DNA of 25,977 nucleotides from a virus. A program made the position numbers and the translations under genes. The stretch is from positions 1 to 25,977 of IMG/VR virus record IMGVR_UViG_3300004806_000087; one strand, 5' to 3'. Position 1 is the stretch's first letter. Each line of letters opens with the position of its first letter. Positions 1 to 11,554 of the stretch are shown piece by piece. A model generated the notes under the pieces. It ran no database searches. It worked only from the letters and a program-made list of their open reading frames with translations, and was not told where the DNA came from.

Positions 1-416
1 GAGCAACTTACGGATTAGATGATGTTTATTTTAGATACAACGGCGACACAGGAAATAACTACACTAATCATGGATTTTATGGTGATGGCGGTAGCGCAAC
101 AGCTTTTGCCCCCTATGGAACAACCACTGGACCGTATCTAGGTGGTGCTTTAGGCACCACAACAGGTAACAATTTTGGTGCAGTTATCCTAGACATTCTT
201 GATTACACAAATTACAGCAAAAACAGAACCATTAGGGCTTTTGGTGGACAAGATACAAACGGCACTATTTCTGGTTACGGTGGACGTATACACTTATCTT
301 CTGGTCTTTGGATGAATACAACTAACCCAATCAACAGCATTACTATAGTTGGTGTCTCTGGAAACTTTACTCAGTATACACAAGCTGCTTTATATGGGAT
401 TAAGGCGGCCAGCTAA
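1..416 (+). CDS. Adhesin-like virion protein, 3' part (N-terminal module type)
   Basis: The reading frame is open from base 3 to the TAA at 414-416; the start lies before the window. The visible 137 residues are rich in Gly, Thr, Asn and Tyr, as in phage fibre beta-structure. The C-terminus ends in ALYGIKAAS. The next two genes carry the same motif (IYGIKAAD, TLYGIGSG) at residue 163-170, where their N-terminal beta-module stops and a glycine-rich region begins. This protein therefore seems to be the same module without the glycine-rich extension. It joins the next gene by a TAATG overlap, so the two are probably translated together. Role in host or surface binding is inferred from family resemblance; catalytic residues are not seen. 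Confidence 0.6.
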   Translation, partial: ATYGLDDVYFRYNGDTGNNYTNHGFYGDGGSATAFAPYGTTTGPYLGGALGTTTGNNFGAVILDILDYTNYSKNRTIRAFGGQDTNGTISGYGGRIHLSSGLWMNTTNPINSITIVGVSGNFTQYTQAALYGIKAAS

Positions 417-1801
417 TGGCTAATATTGGCGCATCTACCTATAACTTTATTGCACAGCAGACTACGGGAAGTTCGGTTGCAGCTATAACTTTTAACAATA
501 TACCTCAAAACTACACCGATTTAGTAGTGGTATTAAATGGAACACTTTCTTCAACAGGAAGAATTGACATTCAGCTTGGTAACGGAAGTATTGACGCAGG
601 CTCGAACTATTCAAATACAGAATTAAATGGTAATGGCTCTGCAGCTAACAGCTACCGATATCCCAACACTACAACTATGCAGGGTGCGTTTGACTCTTAC
701 GCTACGGGAACTGGACAGGTAGCTGCTCAGTGGCACGTTATGAATTACTCTGCTACTACCATGTATAAGTCCGTACTGAGTAAAGCGGCTTCCGCAAGTA
801 ACGGAGTTAACACATCTGTTGGAATGTGGAGAAGCTTTAATCCAGTAAACGTTTTATCTATTGTCCCTACATCTAACTTTTCTTCAGGTGTTACGGCAAC
901 TATCTATGGAATTAAGGCCGCAGATGTAACCTCTATTATTCCTACAAAAGCGTTTGGTGGGGACCAGATTGTTACAGACGGAACGTATACCTACCATGTC
1001 TTTAAGAACTCTGGAGTGTTTAACACCTCGTCTGCTGTAACTGCGGATGTGCTTGTTATTGCAGGAGGTGGCGCTGGTTCAGGTGGCGGTGGTGGTGCAG
1101 GTGGTTTTAGAACTGCTTTATCCCAATCTCTTACAGCCTCAACTTCATACGCTGTAACTGTTGGTGCTGGTGGACCTGGTCAAAATAACCAGGGCTATAC
1201 CGGTGGTGGACAAGGTGGTAATTCTTCACTTGGCTCTGTACTTGCTTCTACGGGTGGTGGACAGGGTGGCTACGTAAACAATAACAGTGCTACAGCTGGT
1301 GGTTCTGGAGGTGGAGCGGGTGGTGGTTCTGTAGGCTCTTACGGAGGCGGTGCGGGTAACGCTGGTTCATATTCTCCAGTAGAAGGCTACGCTGGTGGCG
1401 GAAATACAGCTACAAGCCCTTATCCAGCAGGTGGTGGAGGTGGAGCTGCTGTTGCTGGCGGTAACGGAACTGGTAGCCAATCGGGTGCTGGTGGAGCTGG
1501 TACATACTCTACGCTTAGTGACTCAGTTGGAGCTTTAGTAAACCTAGGTGTTTTGTCTTCCTCTCATTACTACTTTGCTGGCGGTGGTGGTGGCGGTGCG
1601 TCTAACCAAGGAGCCGCAGCAGGTGCAGGAGGATTAGGCGGAGGAGGAGTAGGAGCTAATGCTGGTAGCTCATCTTTTGTACCGTCTTCTTCAGGTCTAT
1701 ACAACACAGGTTCTGGTGGTGGCGGCAACATGATTACCAACGTCACTGCGTTTGGCGGTAATGGCGGCTCAGGCTTAGTAGTAGTGAGGTACGCATCCTA
1801 A
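416..1801 (+). CDS. Glycine-rich phage adhesin/fibre protein
   Basis: A 461-residue protein in two parts. Residues 1-170 form a beta-rich module carrying ITFNNIPQNYTDL, a motif seen in many environmental phage fibre-type proteins, and ending in IYGIKAAD. A short bridge (YTYHVFKNSGVF, then VLVIAGGG) leads into a glycine-rich domain at about 216-455 with runs of Gly broken by Ala, Ser, Asn and aromatics. Such domains can pack as polyglycine-II helices, as in the gp38 adhesin tip of T4-like phage S16, and their loops contact receptors. The last residues, SGLVVVRYAS, match the usual closing strand of this domain. The gene overlaps both neighbours by one base. Tail-tip versus capsid-surface location cannot be told from sequence; the neighbours are neck and decoration genes rather than baseplate genes. 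Confidence 0.75.
   Translation: MANIGASTYNFIAQQTTGSSVAAITFNNIPQNYTDLVVVLNGTLSSTGRIDIQLGNGSIDAGSNYSNTELNGNGSAANSYRYPNTTTMQGAFDSYATGTGQVAAQWHVMNYSATTMYKSVLSKAASASNGVNTSVGMWRSFNPVNVLSIVPTSNFSSGVTATIYGIKAADVTSIIPTKAFGGDQIVTDGTYTYHVFKNSGVFNTSSAVTADVLVIAGGGAGSGGGGGAGGFRTALSQSLTASTSYAVTVGAGGPGQNNQGYTGGGQGGNSSLGSVLASTGGGQGGYVNNNSATAGGSGGGAGGGSVGSYGGGAGNAGSYSPVEGYAGGGNTATSPYPAGGGGGAAVAGGNGTGSQSGAGGAGTYSTLSDSVGALVNLGVLSSSHYYFAGGGGGGASNQGAAAGAGGLGGGGVGANAGSSSFVPSSSGLYNTGSGGGGNMITNVTAFGGNGGSGLVVVRYAS
1061..1780 (+). repeat. Low-complexity GGN-rich coding tract (first adhesin)
   Basis: Irregular runs of GGT/GGC/GGA codons encode the glycine-rich adhesin domain. Repeat units vary in length and spacing, so this is protein-level low complexity, not a regular satellite. 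It resembles the tract at 2428-3140 and could support recombination between the two genes. Confidence 0.7.
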
Positions 1802-3168
1802 TGGCTAAAACATACTCTGCTATTCAGACTATTGTATGTGCTGGCGGCGAAACATCAATTACGTTTAATAATATCCCTCAAAACTATACAGATTTAAAGA
1901 TTGTTACGTCGGCTCGTTCTACCTCACAAAATGGAACTACTACTTGGGCAGACGTTCAACTGCGGCCAACTAATTCCACAACTGGTCTGAGCTCTAAATC
2001 TGTATACGGACAAGGTTCAGGCGCGTACTCTAATGTTGACACAAATCCAACAGGTGGGTTTGCTGCTGGTTCTACTGCAACAACAAACACGTTTTCAAAT
2101 GTTGAAATTTATATTCCAAATTATACGTCATCAAATAACAAAAGTTGGTCAGTTGATGCGGTTACTGAAAACAATGGGTCAGTAGCAATTGCTTGGTTGG
2201 GCGCAAATCTTTGGGCTAACACATCGGCAATAACAAGTTTAGTTATTGCTCCAATTCAAGGTTCCTTTGTTCAATACTCTACCTTTACTCTTTACGGAAT
2301 TGGTTCAGGAGCTAAAGCAACTGGCGGGACTGTAGTGGGCGCGGGTAACTATATTTATCATACCTTTACTTCTTCGGGAACTTTTCAACCTACCGAGCAA
2401 ATTAAGAATGCAGAAGTGCTTGTAGTGGCGGGTGGTGCGTCAGCTGGTTGGGATACGGCAGCGGGTGCTGGTGCTGGAGGTGTTCTTTGGGCACCAAATC
2501 AAACATTTAGCGCAGGAACTGGCTATACCTGCACAGTGGGTGGTGGCGGGGCAAAGCTAAGCGGAGCTGGTACTGGAAATAACGGAAGTAACTCTAGTTT
2601 TAACGGTGGACCTATAGCTTTATCTGCAATTGGTGGCGGAGCATCTGCAACCAACGGCGCTGCTGGAGTAAGCGGCGGTTCTGGCGGCGGAGGTGGATTC
2701 AACGCAACTTCCGCAGGTTCGGCCCTTCAAACTTCTTCAGGTGGCGGGTACGGATATGGGAACGCTGGGGGAACAGCAACAAACCCAGGAGGCTATCCAA
2801 CTGGTGGTGGAGGTGGAGCAGGCGCCGCTGGCGGAAATTCATCTGGAAACACTGCTGGTTCTGGTGGAGTCGGTACTTCTTTGTTCTCTGCTTGGCATTA
2901 CGCAACTCAAACAGGAGTTAACGTTGGCGGCACCTATTACATTGCTGGTGGCGGTGGCGGTGGAGCTTATGGCGGAGGAGGTGGTGTGGCTGGTGCAGGT
3001 GGATACGGCGGCGGCGGCGCTGGAACTGCGGCACCTATTGGAACATCTGGAGGAAATGCGTTAACTAACTCTGGCGGCGGTGGCGGCGGAGGAGCAGGCG
3101 GCGGAAGCTCTACTGGTGGTGGTTCGGGCGGTTCTGGATTACTAATCATTCGTTACCCAGTTAACTAA
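1801..3168 (+). CDS. Glycine-rich phage adhesin/fibre protein, second paralogue
   Basis: A 455-residue paralogue of the gene before it. The N-terminal module (residues 1-168) has the same ITFNNIPQNYTDL motif and closes with TLYGIGSG at nearly the same residue as its neighbour. It then passes through YHTFTSSGTF and VLVVAGG into a glycine-rich domain (about 210-445) with very long Gly runs, ending SGLLIIRYPVN. Between the shared motifs the N-terminal modules have diverged strongly, and the glycine-rich loops differ in sequence, as expected for receptor-contact variation. The start overlaps the previous stop by one base. A good Shine-Dalgarno (AAGGAGG) after the stop belongs to the next gene. 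Receptor binding is inferred; the family assignment is well supported by sequence. Confidence 0.75.
   Translation: MAKTYSAIQTIVCAGGETSITFNNIPQNYTDLKIVTSARSTSQNGTTTWADVQLRPTNSTTGLSSKSVYGQGSGAYSNVDTNPTGGFAAGSTATTNTFSNVEIYIPNYTSSNNKSWSVDAVTENNGSVAIAWLGANLWANTSAITSLVIAPIQGSFVQYSTFTLYGIGSGAKATGGTVVGAGNYIYHTFTSSGTFQPTEQIKNAEVLVVAGGASAGWDTAAGAGAGGVLWAPNQTFSAGTGYTCTVGGGGAKLSGAGTGNNGSNSSFNGGPIALSAIGGGASATNGAAGVSGGSGGGGGFNATSAGSALQTSSGGGYGYGNAGGTATNPGGYPTGGGGGAGAAGGNSSGNTAGSGGVGTSLFSAWHYATQTGVNVGGTYYIAGGGGGGAYGGGGGVAGAGGYGGGGAGTAAPIGTSGGNALTNSGGGGGGGAGGGSSTGGGSGGSGLLIIRYPVN
2428..3140 (+). repeat. Low-complexity GGN-rich coding tract (second adhesin)
   Basis: A second GGN-rich tract encodes the glycine-rich domain of the 1801-3168 adhesin. 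Its reverse strand reads as an open proline-rich frame, which is a composition artefact. Confidence 0.7.
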
Positions 3169-6290: not shown

Positions 6291-7805
6291 ATGGCAACAT
6301 ATCAACGTCCAGGGGTGTACGTTCAGCAAACGCTAAACCCTATTCAACCAGTTGCTGGTCCGTCATCTAACACAGTTGCAGCTTTTGCTGGTGCTAATGA
6401 CCGTGGTCCAGTAACACCTACTTTGGTTACTTCTTGGAGCCAATACGTAAATCTTTACGGCTCTTGGAACACTGTTCAATCTAACGCTCTTCCACTTGCT
6501 TTGTACATGTACTTCAACAACGGTGGAAACTCAGCATTTGTAAACCGCGTACCTGGCTCAGGTGCTACCGCCGCTACTCGTACATTTAGTGATGCTGAAG
6601 TTCCTTCAGTAGCTACATTAAAAGTAAGTGCTAATAACGTTGGTACTTGGGGAAATAGCCTCAACGTAACAATTGTTGCTAGCGCTGCAACAGGATACTT
6701 TGACCTCACTGTGTACCAGGGCGGAAATACCGCAGCAAACATTGTTGAAGTCTGGCCAACAATTTCAATGACAGCTTCAGATTCACGTTATGCAGTTAAC
6801 GTAATCAACAGTGGCTCTAACTTCATTACCGTAACAGATATGGGCTCTACTGCAACAGGCGCTACTCGCAACCCTACCGCAATTCCTAACGCAGCATTGT
6901 CTTCAGGCTCTGACGGCTCGGCTGTTACAGGAAGCACCATTGTTTCTGCTCTTGGAAACTTTGACACTATCCAACAGTCATTGGTACTTAACATCCCAGG
7001 ATACACAGACTCAACAACTGTTAACGGAGCTATCTCATACGCTACTGGTTCAACCCGAACCAACGACGTATTTGTTGTAGTTGATGGCGTAAACGATACT
7101 GTTGCTAACCAGCTTACATTAGCTGCTACATACACAGCAACACCAGTTGCGGCTGTTTACTACCCACAAATTACAATTGCTGACCCAACTGTTGGTGTAG
7201 GAGCGTCACGTAACGCTACCCTCACTATTGGTGCTGGAGCATCCGTTGTTGGTCTGTACTCTGCTACAGATTCTTCACGCGGTGTCTTCAAGGCCCCTGC
7301 TGGTCTTCAAGCTCGTCTTGCTGGCGTTGTTTCAGTTCCTAACTTGACAAACGCTAACTTGGATTCTCTTAACAGTGCATCTGCTCCTGTTAATGCAATC
7401 CGCTACATCCCAGGCTCAGGCATTGTGGTCATGGGTGCCCGTACTCTACAAGCAGGATACACAACTCGTTATGTACCAGTAGAGCGCACACTCATTTACC
7501 TACAAAAGTCTCTTCAAAGCCTTACACAGTTTGCGGTCTTTGAGCCAAACAACTCAGTACTTTGGGGACGTATTAACGCCACTGTTAGCTCGTTCCTTAC
7601 AGGGTTCTGGTCTCAGGGCGGTCTAACGGGTTCATCGCCATCGCAAGCATTCTTTGTCCTCTGCGATAGCACGAACAACACTCAAGCATCCATTGACAAT
7701 GGATATGTAAATATTCAGGTAGGCGTAGCTCTACAGCGTCCAGCTGAATTCGTAATCATCAACATCGGCCAGTACAGCGGTGGTAGCACCATCACTGTTT
7801 CTTAA
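6291..7805 (+). CDS. Contractile tail sheath protein
   Basis: A 504-residue sheath subunit. It starts MATYQRPGVYVQ, the usual N-terminus whose arm links neighbouring subunits, followed by AAFAGANDRGPV and a strand with SWSQYVNLYGSW, all characteristic of the family. The C-terminal domain (about 360-504) has the conserved YVPVERTLIYLQKSL and GRINATVSSFLTGFWSQG segments, then FVLCDSTNN, DNGYVNIQVGVA and a final PAEFVIINIGQ strand. The middle residues (about 110-300) form a variable outer beta-domain. Strong site AAGGAGA lies before the ATG. It is followed at 15 bases by the tube gene, as in most contractile phages. Sheath contraction drives the tube into the host. Confidence 0.95.
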   Translation: MATYQRPGVYVQQTLNPIQPVAGPSSNTVAAFAGANDRGPVTPTLVTSWSQYVNLYGSWNTVQSNALPLALYMYFNNGGNSAFVNRVPGSGATAATRTFSDAEVPSVATLKVSANNVGTWGNSLNVTIVASAATGYFDLTVYQGGNTAANIVEVWPTISMTASDSRYAVNVINSGSNFITVTDMGSTATGATRNPTAIPNAALSSGSDGSAVTGSTIVSALGNFDTIQQSLVLNIPGYTDSTTVNGAISYATGSTRTNDVFVVVDGVNDTVANQLTLAATYTATPVAAVYYPQITIADPTVGVGASRNATLTIGAGASVVGLYSATDSSRGVFKAPAGLQARLAGVVSVPNLTNANLDSLNSASAPVNAIRYIPGSGIVVMGARTLQAGYTTRYVPVERTLIYLQKSLQSLTQFAVFEPNNSVLWGRINATVSSFLTGFWSQGGLTGSSPSQAFFVLCDSTNNTQASIDNGYVNIQVGVALQRPAEFVIINIGQYSGGSTITVS

Positions 7806-7820
7806 GGAGATAGATAAAAA

Positions 7821-8525
7821 ATGACAAGCAGCTCACTAAGCACATACAACTCAAGTCTGGCCACAGACCCGCTACGCTCGTTTAGGTTCAATGCAACCTT
7901 CACCGCAGCTTCTACGGGTGACGGTGTCTTTGACTCACGAATTGTAAGCAACGGCGGAACCTCTGTTCCTACCACTGGAGTCTCAACTGGATGGGTTGGC
8001 GGTTTCACCAACATCTCTGGTTTGAGCATCAACACTCAAGCTATCCAGTACCGTGAAGGCGGCTACAACACAACTGTCCACCAGATTCCTGGTATGACTA
8101 CGTTCTCGCCACTTTCGTTTACCCGTGGAGTACTCTACGGCAACGACCAAGCAATGACCTGGATGCGCGGCTTGTTTGCCGCAGCGGCTGGCTCAGGACT
8201 TAACCCTTCAGCTAAGGGCGGCACTGCGGCCTCTACTCCTACCTCAACAGGTGGATTTAACGGCCAAGGCGGTTTTCGTGTTGACATCCTAATCACTGTC
8301 AACGAGCACCCAGGAACTGACGTAGTTAACGACGCTCCTCAAATGGCGTTCAAGGTACACAATGCTTGGATTTCAAACCTAAGCTATACGGACTTGGATG
8401 CAACAAACGGAGCAATTCTGTTTGAGTCAATGCAGTTGGTACATGAAGGCATCTCTGTCTTCTTCACCAATTCATCTGGCTACCCAACAGAAGCACCTAC
8501 AGCAGCTGGTCTAAACGACTTCTAA
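7821..8525 (+). CDS. Tail tube protein (T4 gp19-like)
   Basis: A 234-residue tube subunit. N-terminal DPLRSFRFNATF leads to the signature region with VSGF-like FTNISGLSINTQAIQYREGG, followed by TVHQIPGMTTFSPLSFTRGV, where the IPG and ltRG motifs are typical of gp19-type tubes (they form the inner beta-barrel). A loop of about 30 residues rich in Gly, Ser, Thr (near residues 120-150) comes next, then FRVDILITVNEH and a closing AWISNLSYTDLDATN strand. AAGGAG precedes the ATG. The gene follows sheath at 15 bases, as expected. It forms stacked hexameric rings through which DNA passes. Confidence 0.9.
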   Translation: MTSSSLSTYNSSLATDPLRSFRFNATFTAASTGDGVFDSRIVSNGGTSVPTTGVSTGWVGGFTNISGLSINTQAIQYREGGYNTTVHQIPGMTTFSPLSFTRGVLYGNDQAMTWMRGLFAAAAGSGLNPSAKGGTAASTPTSTGGFNGQGGFRVDILITVNEHPGTDVVNDAPQMAFKVHNAWISNLSYTDLDATNGAILFESMQLVHEGISVFFTNSSGYPTEAPTAAGLNDF

Positions 8526-8551: not shown

Positions 8552-9346
8552 GTGTCACAAATTATCACAGACGCAGAACTAGTAAATCAATTTGCTAAAA
8601 AGGCTATGGAGGAGCCCGAGCAACTCATTGAGACTCGGGCCCCTCTTGGTCCAGAAGTAAAACTTCCAGGCGGGTACATTGAACCTAACGGAGAGCTAGT
8701 GACCACAGTAGAAGTACGAGAGCTTAACGGCGTTGACGAAGAGGCTATTGCCAAAGCGTCTACCACTGGCAAGGCTCTTAACATCCTTCTTCAACGTGGT
8801 TTAGTAAAGATTGGTGGCCGCGACGCTACTAGAGACGACCTAGATAAGTTGTTATCTGGTGACCGCGACGCCATCTTGATTGGTATTCGCCGTATTACTT
8901 TTGGCGAAACTATCGACCTAAGAATACAGTGCCCATCCTGTGGGGTAGAGCAAGAAACATCTATTGACCTAAATGAAGACGTTCCTACTAAGACTATGGA
9001 CGACCCAATCGCGGACCGAGCATGGAAAGTAGAGACAAAGCAAGGTTACGTAGATATAGCTCTTCCTACTGGAGTAACGCAGAGAAAGCTTCTTGAGAAC
9101 TCGGATAAAACTTCCGCGGAAATCAACACCCTTCTTCTCTCTGGCTGTGTGCTATCGGTAAACGGTAAGCCGTCTATTGGAGCCAGCACAGTTCTTTCTT
9201 TGGGTATGGCGGACCGCTCAAAGATTGTTCAAGAAATTATTGACCGTAACCCAGGCCCACGCCTTGGGGAGGTGAGCAAGACCTGCAAGGCATGTGGTGA
9301 AGGAGTCGCACTACCACTTAGTCTTGTTGATTTGTTTCGCCTATAA
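8552..9346 (+). CDS. T4 gp26-like baseplate/tail assembly protein with split zinc ribbon
   Basis: A 264-residue protein with a GTG start at 8552 preceded by AGGAG. The central part (VEVRELNGVDEEAIAKAS, then DAILIGIRRITFG) resembles the T4 gp26 baseplate family, which acts in hub assembly. Two CxxC pairs, C127/C130 and C245/C248, could bind one zinc ion, joined across a 110-residue middle domain. Its place between tube and tape measure is that of tail assembly chaperones in other phages. The ORF stops at TAA 9344-9346, but a second frame without a credible start continues to 9491, suggesting a frameshifted longer product of about 312 residues. Whether the short form is hub subunit or chaperone is unresolved. 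Confidence 0.75.
   Translation: MSQIITDAELVNQFAKKAMEEPEQLIETRAPLGPEVKLPGGYIEPNGELVTTVEVRELNGVDEEAIAKASTTGKALNILLQRGLVKIGGRDATRDDLDKLLSGDRDAILIGIRRITFGETIDLRIQCPSCGVEQETSIDLNEDVPTKTMDDPIADRAWKVETKQGYVDIALPTGVTQRKLLENSDKTSAEINTLLLSGCVLSVNGKPSIGASTVLSLGMADRSKIVQEIIDRNPGPRLGEVSKTCKACGEGVALPLSLVDLFRL
9335..9341 (+). other. Candidate +1 frameshift site (TTT C...)
   Basis: The only region where the gp26-like frame and the downstream frame are both open is 9276-9346, just before the TAA at 9344. Here TTT CGC CTA TAA is read in the upstream frame. A Phe tRNA (anticodon GAA) slipping from UUU to UUC by one base would continue as GCC TAT AAC, entering the downstream frame. Phe pairs better with UUC, which favours +1 slippage. 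A -2 shift gives the same frame. CTT AGT C at 9317 is a second possible site. None is proved. Confidence 0.4.
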
Positions 9347-9491
9347 CGATAAAGATTACGAGAACTTGTTAGACCAGTACGAGTTCTTGACCAGAACATT
9401 TACTGGTTGGCCTTTGTCGGACGTTAAAAACATGTCTGTCAGAGAACGTTGGAACTGGATTGACCGAGCTAAAAGAAATAGGAGGTACTGA
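9339..9491 (+). CDS. Frameshifted C-terminal extension of the gp26-like gene (probable tail assembly chaperone extension)
   Basis: About 50 codons after the shift point, ending at TGA 9489-9491. The peptide reads AYNDKDYENLLDQYEFLTRT, then FTGWPLSDVKNMSVRERWNW and IDRAKRNRRY. It looks like coding sequence: soluble, helical and charged, ending in a basic tail. The frame is open only from 9276; its starts there are GTG codons at 9294 and 9297 with no ribosome site, and they give an unnatural hydrophobic lead (SHYHLVLLIC). Overlapping ORFs joined by frameshift before the tape measure gene are a hallmark of tail assembly chaperones in long-tailed phages. A separately started gene is the alternative. 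The tape measure ATG overlaps its stop by one base. Confidence 0.6.
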   Translation, partial: AYNDKDYENLLDQYEFLTRTFTGWPLSDVKNMSVRERWNWIDRAKRNRRY

Positions 9492-11554
9492 TGGACGACA
9501 GTAAGCTGGCGTTTAACCTATCAGGCCAGGGCGGTAACGGTAACGTGTCCGTTTCTATTACTAATATCAAGAACGATATTCTCGGTCTTTCTAACGTCAT
9601 TACTAACACGCTTCAGCCAGCCATCGACAAGATGGTGCGCTCGCTTAATAGCGTAAAGCTCCCTGGTCTTGTAGACGCTAAAGGCAACCCTATAAGCAGT
9701 GGTGGCGGTGTACCCTCTGAAAAAGTTGCTGACAATGGAGTGCGCACCTCAGCTGGCGGCGGCACTACTGCTGGTTCCAATAAAGTTGCTGACAACGGCA
9801 CAGCTGGAGGCGGCGGAGGCGGAAATGTATTTAACCGAGTAGCTGCGGCTGCAGGTGGGTTTTCTAATGCTGTAGGTAGAGCTCAGGGAATATCTGATGC
9901 CATAGGCAATTTAATACCTTCGACTCAAACTGCAGTTATGCAGGACTACCTAACTAATCGCTCTGCCTTCTTTGGGCAAGGCGGTTATGCGGGCACATTA
10001 GCGCAACAGACCGGAAATGTTCGAGCTCTTCAGCAGGCTCTTGCGCGAAATGGCACGGCGCTTAATCCTATGGATACTACTAACGCCCTTGCTGCAGCAC
10101 AGGCAACAGGGCTTAGCGGAGCATCTAACTTTAATCAAGTAATGCAGGGAGCTGCTCAAGCATCTAACTTTACTCCTGGACTAGGTTTGACTGGGGCCAC
10201 TCAAGAAATCGGCTCTAACCTAAACGCACCTGGAACCGTAAACATGTTGCGTACTATTGGAATTAATTTGCGCGGTGCTAACGGCAGCATGCTCTCTTTG
10301 CCGCAAGTAGTAGACGAAATTTGGAACTATTTAACTCGATATAACGCTGGAAAAGCTCCGGACAAGAAGTCTATTCAATCTTCTTTAATACCTGGTAATG
10401 GTATCTATAACATGTTAAACAACTTGTTTAACGGCGATGCCACTATGGTTCAAATGGTATCTAATATGCTCTTAGCTAAGGCTCAATTTGGCGGACAAGC
10501 TTTGGGAACTATTACTAAAGACCAGCTTGTTGGTGCGGGTATTCAGACACAGACTGTTAAGGATATTGCTAGCCAAACCGCTGCTCAAACAAATCTTTTA
10601 ACTAATACCTCCTCGGCTATATCTGGTGGATATGATGCCGCTACTAAATTTAACACTGCAGTCACAAACTTCCAAAACTCCGTAAACGGATTTACTAAAG
10701 TCTTTGGCTTTGGCAACGCTCTTACTGGCGGTCTTTTGGGCGGAATTATGGGTACAGGAACCAAGGTCCTAGGAAAGTTATTCTCCTTACTTGGTTTTGC
10801 TGATGGCGGTAACGTAAAGCAAGGCGGACCTACTGGCCAAAACGACATCCCTTACATTGTTGGTGAAATGGGACCAGAGCTCTTTGTACCTAAAACTGAT
10901 GGGGTTATTATCCCTAATGACCTTTTAGGAAAAAGAAATAGAGCTAGCGGTGGACCTGTATATGGTCAACAAGACTTTGCTAAACAATTGCTCGCTGGAC
11001 TTGGTGCGCCACTAACCTCTCAAAACATAGCTGACCTTGTTATGTGGGAGGGCAAGGAAGGCGGTAACTGGAAAAACACAGCTAGCTATAACCCACTAAA
11101 TACATCTTACCAAATGCCAGGCTCTGTTAACTTTAACAGCAGAATGTCAGGAAGTGGCGTACAGGCTTACCAAAACTGGGCTCAAGGAGTCGCCGCAACT
11201 GTAGGAACTCTTACTGGAAAAGATGCGGCTTCCCGCGGCTATACCAACATAGTTAATCTGCTTAAAAATGGAACGGCATCTCAAGCAGATTTCTTTAAAG
11301 CAATGCAGGCCTCTGCGTGGGACGCTAACCATTACGCAGGCGGTTCGTCCTCCTCAGCGGTCTCTGCTACGCCAGCTGTTACTGGAAGTTTAGCTGCCGC
11401 TGCCGCATCCGCCGAAGGCCTGGGTTCCACTGGTGGCGGAACAACCGTTAACTATGGTGGAGTTACAATTAACGTAAATGGCGCACAGAGCCCTACGGCT
11501 ACTGCGGCTGCAATCCAAAAGGCGCTGACAAACACTAAGATAGGTAAGAGCTAA
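9491..11554 (+). CDS. Tape measure protein with probable peptidoglycan-hydrolase domain
   Basis: A 687-residue protein with AGGAGG upstream of its ATG and a TGATG overlap. The N-terminal region is helical and Ala/Gln/Asn rich; glycine linkers at about 75-115 interrupt it. A hydrophobic segment (about 410-440) precedes YIVGEMGPELFVPKTDG (around 455-472), a motif commonly found near the C-terminus of tape measures. Residues about 490-620 look like a lysozyme- or glucosaminidase-like fold: ADLVMWEGKEGG, NPLNTSYQMPGS, FNSRMSGSGVQAYQNWAQGV, then a helix. This would open the cell wall during injection. A glycine-rich strand and a final helix follow. Length suggests a tail of roughly 100 nm, using about 0.15 nm per residue. 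Confidence 0.8.
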   Translation: MDDSKLAFNLSGQGGNGNVSVSITNIKNDILGLSNVITNTLQPAIDKMVRSLNSVKLPGLVDAKGNPISSGGGVPSEKVADNGVRTSAGGGTTAGSNKVADNGTAGGGGGGNVFNRVAAAAGGFSNAVGRAQGISDAIGNLIPSTQTAVMQDYLTNRSAFFGQGGYAGTLAQQTGNVRALQQALARNGTALNPMDTTNALAAAQATGLSGASNFNQVMQGAAQASNFTPGLGLTGATQEIGSNLNAPGTVNMLRTIGINLRGANGSMLSLPQVVDEIWNYLTRYNAGKAPDKKSIQSSLIPGNGIYNMLNNLFNGDATMVQMVSNMLLAKAQFGGQALGTITKDQLVGAGIQTQTVKDIASQTAAQTNLLTNTSSAISGGYDAATKFNTAVTNFQNSVNGFTKVFGFGNALTGGLLGGIMGTGTKVLGKLFSLLGFADGGNVKQGGPTGQNDIPYIVGEMGPELFVPKTDGVIIPNDLLGKRNRASGGPVYGQQDFAKQLLAGLGAPLTSQNIADLVMWEGKEGGNWKNTASYNPLNTSYQMPGSVNFNSRMSGSGVQAYQNWAQGVAATVGTLTGKDAASRGYTNIVNLLKNGTASQADFFKAMQASAWDANHYAGGSSSSAVSATPAVTGSLAAAAASAEGLGSTGGGTTVNYGGVTINVNGAQSPTATAAAIQKALTNTKIGKS

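Follow-up and report, generated by a model that had tools for sequence, protein, structure and literature searches.

A predicted +1 frameshift at a conserved UUU C between a gp26-like tail gene and a start-less extension

Frameshifting in the lambda G/GT tail genes and their analogues was described by Xu, Hendrix and Duda (2004, as cited in PMC6316719) and has been reviewed (PMC5009743). Phage P2 makes its E+E' product by a -1 frameshift at T6G (PMC3931495), and for the Halorubrum myovirus HSTV-2 the tail frameshift was rated as 'very likely +1' (PMC5009743). Tail frameshifting is regarded as widely conserved 'except T4' (PMC5009743). Furthermore, a 5' stem-loop has been proposed as the motor of bypassing in T4 gene 60, and the known range of SD stimulators is 3 nt for +1 and 9-14 nt for -1 shifts (both PMC5009743).

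The DNA analyzed here, referred to as the window, is the stretch of 25,977 nucleotides representing the IMG/VR virus record IMGVR_UViG_3300004806_000087. It carries a contractile-tail module (Table 1) featuring the gene order tube, gp26-like gene, extension and tape measure, which is common to BRock-type phages, with hub and wedge genes located 3' of the tape-measure-like gene. No Pfam match was obtained for the latter, whose SD AGGAGG (9480-9485) is embedded in the final part of the extension and whose ATG shares bases with the stop codon of the extension. On the 5' side of the tail module, two adjoining Gly-rich proteins of adhesin- or tail-fibre-like character are encoded at positions 416-3168.

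A first-pass annotation made from the sequence alone had placed the short ORF in the +1 (equivalently -2) frame of the gp26-like gene and had proposed a programmed tail-chaperone frameshift 5' of the tape measure gene. The frame assignment was confirmed by the ORF coordinates, and comparison of relatives supports the putative frameshift. The gp26-like ORF ends with TAA at 9344-9346, and the junction reads GAT TTG TTT CGC CTA TAA in the 0 frame, with TTT C lying in the gp26-like frame two codons 5' of the stop. The motif GAYTTGTTTCG occurs once in the window, compared to 0.01 occurrences expected by chance. The size predicted earlier for the fused product (about 312 residues), with the shift soon after the second CxxC pair, agrees with reading through TTTC, which gives 312 residues and a junction at F262, 14 residues past the second CxxC.

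Table 1. Features of the tail module and of the predicted frameshift locus in the window
Feature	Position (strand)	Basis or remark
Sheath gene	6291-7805	part of the contractile-tail module
Tail tube protein gene, 5' neighbour of the gp26-like gene	7821..8525 (+)	Pfam Phage_T4_gp19, E=9.5e-22
gp26-like gene, proposed short tail assembly chaperone, 264 aa	8552..9346 (+)	T4_baseplate PF12322 / phrog_150 'baseplate hub'
Hairpin H1, CCCAGGC-CCAC-GCCtTGGG	9250..9268 (+)	helix pairing 95.9% (38 sequences)
SD-like GGGGAGGTG, roughly 60 nt 5' of the slip	9266..9274 (+)	codon conservation
Stop-to-stop short ORF, 71 codons	9276-9491 (+)	ORF listing
Overlap, +1 frame open, protein not conserved	9276..9338 (+)	frame opens at varying distances among relatives
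Stem-loop H2, CAAGGC..GYGG / CCRC..GYCTTG	9286..9326 (+)	covariation
Putative slip site UUU-C, P-site tRNA-Phe UUU to UUC	9335..9338 (+)	comparison of relatives
Predicted +1-frame extension, 50 aa plus stop, completing the 312-aa fusion	9339..9491 (+)	pN/pS, Pfam GpE, AF2
Tape-measure-like gene	9491..11554 (+)	inferred from position, length and gene order

Based on these features and on the comparisons described below, a +1 frameshift at UUU C producing the 312-residue fusion is considered very probable. Most ribosomes would terminate at 9346 and release the 264-aa gp26-like protein. In a minority, the P-site tRNA-Phe on UUU (9335-9337) would move ahead by one base onto UUC (9336-9338), after which these ribosomes would read the +1 frame to 9491, yielding the fusion with its three-helix extension. 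One initiation site would in this manner supply both members of a tail assembly chaperone pair. The occurrence of the shift in cells and the minor share of ribosomes involved are inferred from comparative sequence data.

Conservation of the slip site among relatives

With the gp26-like protein as query, a scan of viral contigs yielded 80 loci. In all 80 sequences containing the gene end (79 loci plus the window), the short ORF is in the +1 frame and TTT C is present near the stop. Further scans were queried with the divergent L079 and with a Streptomyces phage protein; the extension is in the +1 frame in all 42 loci examined from these. The Streptomyces isolates LuckySocke, BRock, pSt2308 and GiJojo (4/4) possess CTG TTT C and an extension in the +1 frame. 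Two scans of bacterial-genome contigs with the BRock and window proteins returned no relative. A non-redundant set of 56 sequences was divided into clade A (window-like, 38), clade B (L127-L136, 6) and clade C (Streptomyces-like, 12).

Within this set, the downstream ORF is always in the +1 frame (56/56). The Phe slip site suggested by the first-pass annotation at TTT C is likewise retained, with UUU in 56/56 sequences; it reads TTTC in all but one of them (55), the exception being L128 with TTTT (GAT TTG TTT TGA G). In L128-L130, TTT is followed by TGA, i.e., by a stop codon in the A site. The codon 5' of TTT is TTG in 41 sequences, CTG in nine, CTA in four, TTA in one and CTC in one. Alignment of relatives near the slip had been named as a check, and in the close set TTG (31/32) and TTT (32/32) proved to be synonymously conserved where neighbouring codons vary.

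Among the 56 sequences, the 0-frame stop is located 0-3 codons past the slip and a +1-frame stop occurs as little as 5 nt before TTT. Since the tightest sequences leave few codons before the stop and only UUU re-pairs, the shift is assigned to UUU, where re-pairing would be to UUC, or to UUU in L128. On UUC, tRNA-Phe would gain a G-C wobble pair. The ambiguity between +1 and -2, left standing by the first-pass annotation, narrows to +1 on the same grounds. A -2 shift would lead into the identical final frame, and there is precedent for -2 shifts that present as +1 (PMC10885494). From UUU, however, a -2 step lands tRNA-Phe on UGU wherever UUG or CUG precedes, none of the remaining conserved codons within the permitted interval re-pairs at -2, and UUU UGA in L128-L130 represents a classical +1 context. 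The -2 shift was rejected on re-pairing and is judged extremely unlikely.

Transcriptional slippage or a sequencing error could also join the two frames, but the site (TTGTTTCG) is devoid of a homopolymer run of useful length and the arrangement recurs in many independent contigs as well as in isolate genomes, which leaves this explanation a negligible chance. Against the +1 frameshift at UUU C stand the 0-frame A-site codons CGC and CGT, whose frequencies in the window (10.2 and 7.9 per 1000) are not those of rare codons, and the absence before the slip of the SD at 3-nt spacing known for bacterial +1 shifts. RNAalifold predicted no stimulatory structure in the 90 nt past the slip.

An extension lacking its own start

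The conserved part of the short ORF had been described as preceded by neither an ATG nor a ribosome site. In the window, the only possible starts before this part are GTG 9294/9297, TTG 9324/9327 and ATT 9330, none of which has a properly spaced SD, and a usable start is thus lacking. As a minor correction, GTG and TTG do occur in the +1 frame of the window, but they are not conserved in relatives. Between the upstream stop and the fourth extension codon, ATG, GTG and TTG are absent from the +1 frame of 27 of the 56 non-redundant relatives; in ten of the 56, including L079 and seven BRock-type sequences, CTG, ATT, ATC and ATA are absent as well, and L045 is likewise without +1-frame start codons, near-cognates included. 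In the clade with CTAG before the slip, the +1 frame opens at ATT, a codon that is ACT in others.

The extension shows a pN/pS of 0.33 in the +1 frame versus 1.04 and 1.77 when these bases are read in the two other frames, indicating that it evolves as a protein in the +1 frame only. The second ORF hence combines, as expected for a tail chaperone pair, an out-of-frame overlap with protein-level selection and no start of its own, and the absence of start codons in relatives argues that the extension is not a separate gene. Translation from an own start (GTG 9294, TTG 9324/9327 or ATT 9330) by translational coupling would be in accordance with the strong SD-like GGGGAGGTG upstream, with the in-frame GTG and TTG codons of the window and with the separate annotation of the ORF in BRock, LuckySocke and GiJojo; in a variant, GGGGAGGTG would perhaps serve as SD, with H2 folding out the gap. 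Both the relatives without ATG, GTG or TTG in the open +1 frame (27/56, ten of them also lacking CTG and ATH) and the conservation of UUU C beyond amino-acid need contradict this explanation, and an independent start, rejected on the start-codon surveys, is rated very unlikely. Relatives with a clear separate start, or relatives that have lost the overlap, both named earlier as counter-evidence to a frameshift, were not found. In public annotations, the short ORF starts too late in BRock, LuckySocke and GiJojo and is missing in pSt2308 (L081-L084).

RNA elements upstream of the slip site

A conserved upstream RNA element and the wider gp26/gp51 relationship go beyond the first-pass annotation. 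In clade A, synonymous sites at 9246-9292 are near-frozen (CGC 32/32, GAG 32/32, GTG 32/32, GGG 31/32, GCA 31/32). This applies to the codons of GGGGAGGTG (GAG and GTG 32/32, GGG 31/32), from which only L006/L007 deviate within clade A (TCGGAGGTG). GGGGAGGTG occurs once in the window, and no start codon is present at SD spacing from it. A role for it as start signal or as direct stimulator of the +1 shift was rejected, the spacing of about 60 nt being wrong and the element being absent from clades B and C.

The conserved block folds into H1, with GGGGAGGTG next and H2 after it. Over the 38 clade A sequences, this structure is 92.3% paired, its covariation exceeds that of all 500 shuffles and slid registers are all worse. 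The H2 pair 51-72 is realized as UA in 24, CG in nine and UG in four sequences, and the outer helix of H2 is paired in only 84.6% of cells. Since the shuffle control keeps relatedness among sequences, the clade A covariation is strong but no proof. Folding against synonymous-codon shuffles gave a mean z of about -2 over H1 and part of H2 and about 0 further upstream. The clade A covariance model found one site per locus, and positions 9100-9600 returned no Rfam 15 covariance-model match at E values of up to 5.

In clade B, the corresponding z amounts to -3.1 for the 45 nt preceding the slip, where a stem TCCGCTA-TAGCGGA ends 4-5 nt before UUU, is 100% paired and agrees with RNAalifold. Clade C features a stem CCCRC-GTGGG ending 7 nt before UUU, which is 91.7% paired without double changes. 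Its folding z of about -1.0 is matched by another folding window as low (-1.17), and the clade C structure is therefore weakly supported.

The 3' end of H2 lies 8 nt before UUU. When UUU occupies the P site, the 3' arm of this stem-loop is inside the mRNA exit channel or emerging from it. H2 may re-form as the mRNA exits the ribosome, pull the mRNA 5'-ward and favour the forward slip. This mechanism, drawn by analogy, is proposed tentatively and with somewhat less than even confidence; alternatively, the element may slow the ribosome or act elsewhere. A rival explanation accepts the frameshift but lets the upstream RNA block act elsewhere, i.e., in mRNA stability, in binding of a protein or small RNA or in translation control of the tape measure. 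Conservation of the H1 plus GGGGAGGTG block, situated 60-85 nt 5' of the slip, is confined to clade A. This restriction, and a distance exceeding the known SD stimulator range (PMC5009743), speak for such a role, whereas the presence in three clades of stem-loops that are unrelated in sequence and all end 4-8 nt 5' of UUU speaks against it; it is possible, though on balance doubtful. Part of the synonymous constraint on H1 may serve another purpose.

The set of upstream RNA elements is unusual and can be tested with reporters. If the pulling mechanism is true, the +1 stem-loop would represent a class of frameshift signal without SD or obligatory stop.

The chaperone pair and its relation to known systems

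The gp26-like protein matches Pfam T4_baseplate (E=1.9e-10, 41.3 bits versus a gathering score of 24.5) and PHROG phrog_150 (E=8e-10). T4_baseplate is also matched by the gp26-like proteins of clades B and C, of SP-15 and of cyanophages. AF2 was applied to the gp26-like part and the extension separately. The gp26-like model (pLDDT 87.5) matches predicted viral T4-like hub assembly proteins, and among 350,542 PDB chains it is matched best by 2ob9_B, the tail assembly chaperone of HK97 (prob 0.91, TMt 0.58), with an E of 0.65 that is not significant alone. A PDB sequence search returned nothing. The extension was modelled as three helices (pLDDT 85.5). Compared with Phage_P2_GpE (PF06528), the window member reached 17.9 bits and thus stayed below the cut-off of 23 (E=0.0023); weak GpE matches were obtained for 23 of 39 extension members (best E=6e-4).

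Gene order, with the gp26-like gene between the tube and tape measure positions, the HK97 structure match and the GpE likeness lead us to regard the gp26-like protein and the fusion as probably forming a pair of tail assembly chaperones comparable to lambda G/GT and P2 E/E+E'. As in those pairs, the common part would coat the tape measure protein and the extension would recruit tail tube subunits. Six extension sequences (A4 alignment) match Pfam DUF6760 (best E=8.6e-5). This family occurs in contractile injection system loci, which may carry the same chaperone pair.

Among T4-like cyanophages and relatives, gp26 genes with T TTT TTC near their end were found in cyanophages S-SM1, ACG-2014d, P-SSM7 and S-SRM01, pelagiphage Mosig, Vibrio phage nt-1 and Stenotrophomonas phage Yut3. 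These phages encode gp51, or a counterpart of it, in the frame -1 to gp26, and no ATG, GTG or TTG precedes the conserved start of gp51 in ACG-2014d and P-SSM7. An apparently unannotated -1 frameshift would thus join gp26 and gp51. With gp51 encoded in this frame, mostly across U UUU UUC, the T4-type chaperone pair would seem to be gp26/gp51. This suggests that relatives of T4 have tail frameshifting in gp26/gp51. In the T4-type Escherichia coli phage APCEc01, the gp26 and hub assembly protein genes are apart and on opposite strands. Cyanophage C48C1 has a -1-frame ORF after gp26 with poly-U at the slip. The likeness between the gp51 profile and the window-type extension is weak (hhalign E 3e-4, probability 41%). 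In the open-access literature, no report of gp26/gp51 frameshifting or of the present UUU C site was found.

The gp26/gp51 layout with a -1 frame was observed at loci L164, L165, L166, L167, L168, L170, L172 and L173. Short ORFs in the +1 frame after gp26-like genes were detected in Listeria phage LIS04, Bacillus phage SP-15, Streptococcus phage SagM-GXN1 and a huge phage (L158-L161); in L158, L159, L160 and L161 the slip codons are less clear. Pseudomonas phage sp. 30-3 (L162, near 2600-2836) shows a -1 frame over AGT TTT TTC, with differing neighbour genes.

A broader scheme could be drawn from these sequences, in which the gp26 family would comprise myophage tail chaperones, frameshift-paired with gp51 by -1 in cyanophages and by +1 in actinophages, the +1 stem-loop pushing the ribosome and the split genes of T4 being the exception; the chances of this scheme being right in full are seen as slightly below even. 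It would offer an answer to why T4 seemed to be without tail-chaperone frameshifting, namely gp26/gp51 in its relatives, and gp51, named hub assembly 'catalyst', would be a chaperone extension. For annotation, gene calls are truncated or missing here in BRock, GiJojo, LuckySocke, pSt2308, ACG-2014d and P-SSM7. Moreover, the predicted slip site adds a deeply conserved +1 site to signals described as having no general motif (PMC10885494).

Like the window pair, lambda G/GT is located between tube and tape measure genes and comprises a short and a C-terminally extended product with a start-less extension. Lambda shifts by -1 at X XXY YYZ, whereas the window pair is predicted to shift by +1 at UUU C and differs further in its upstream RNA stem-loops and its gp26-type protein with CxxC motifs. 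P2 shares the contractile tail and a faint likeness of the extension (GW-L--I--LS-RER--W); its E/E+E' shift is -1 instead of +1, and the upstream protein of the window hits no P2 E-like family in Pfam. The cyanophage genes gp26 and gp51 ('baseplate hub' and 'baseplate hub assembly catalyst') resemble the window in combining a gp26 family protein with an out-of-frame short ORF, but the extension is reached by -1, mostly at U UUU UUC, compared to +1 at UUU C.

Release factor 2 resembles the window in a P-site +1 slip to equal or better pairing, and L128-L130 share its A-site stop. In contrast, no SD is located 3 nt before the window-type slip, and in 55/56 sequences a sense codon (CGN, CAR) occupies the A site, a stop being present only in L128-L130. 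T4 gene 60 has in common a stem-loop 5' of the codon where slip or take-off occurs; forming at the mRNA exit, this stem-loop could draw the mRNA 5'-ward. Gene 60 bypasses 50 nt whereas a one-base slip is predicted for the window, and the shared mechanism is only proposed. HSTV-2, likened to the window by description, is archaeal and resembles it as a myovirus with a tail frameshift that is very likely +1.
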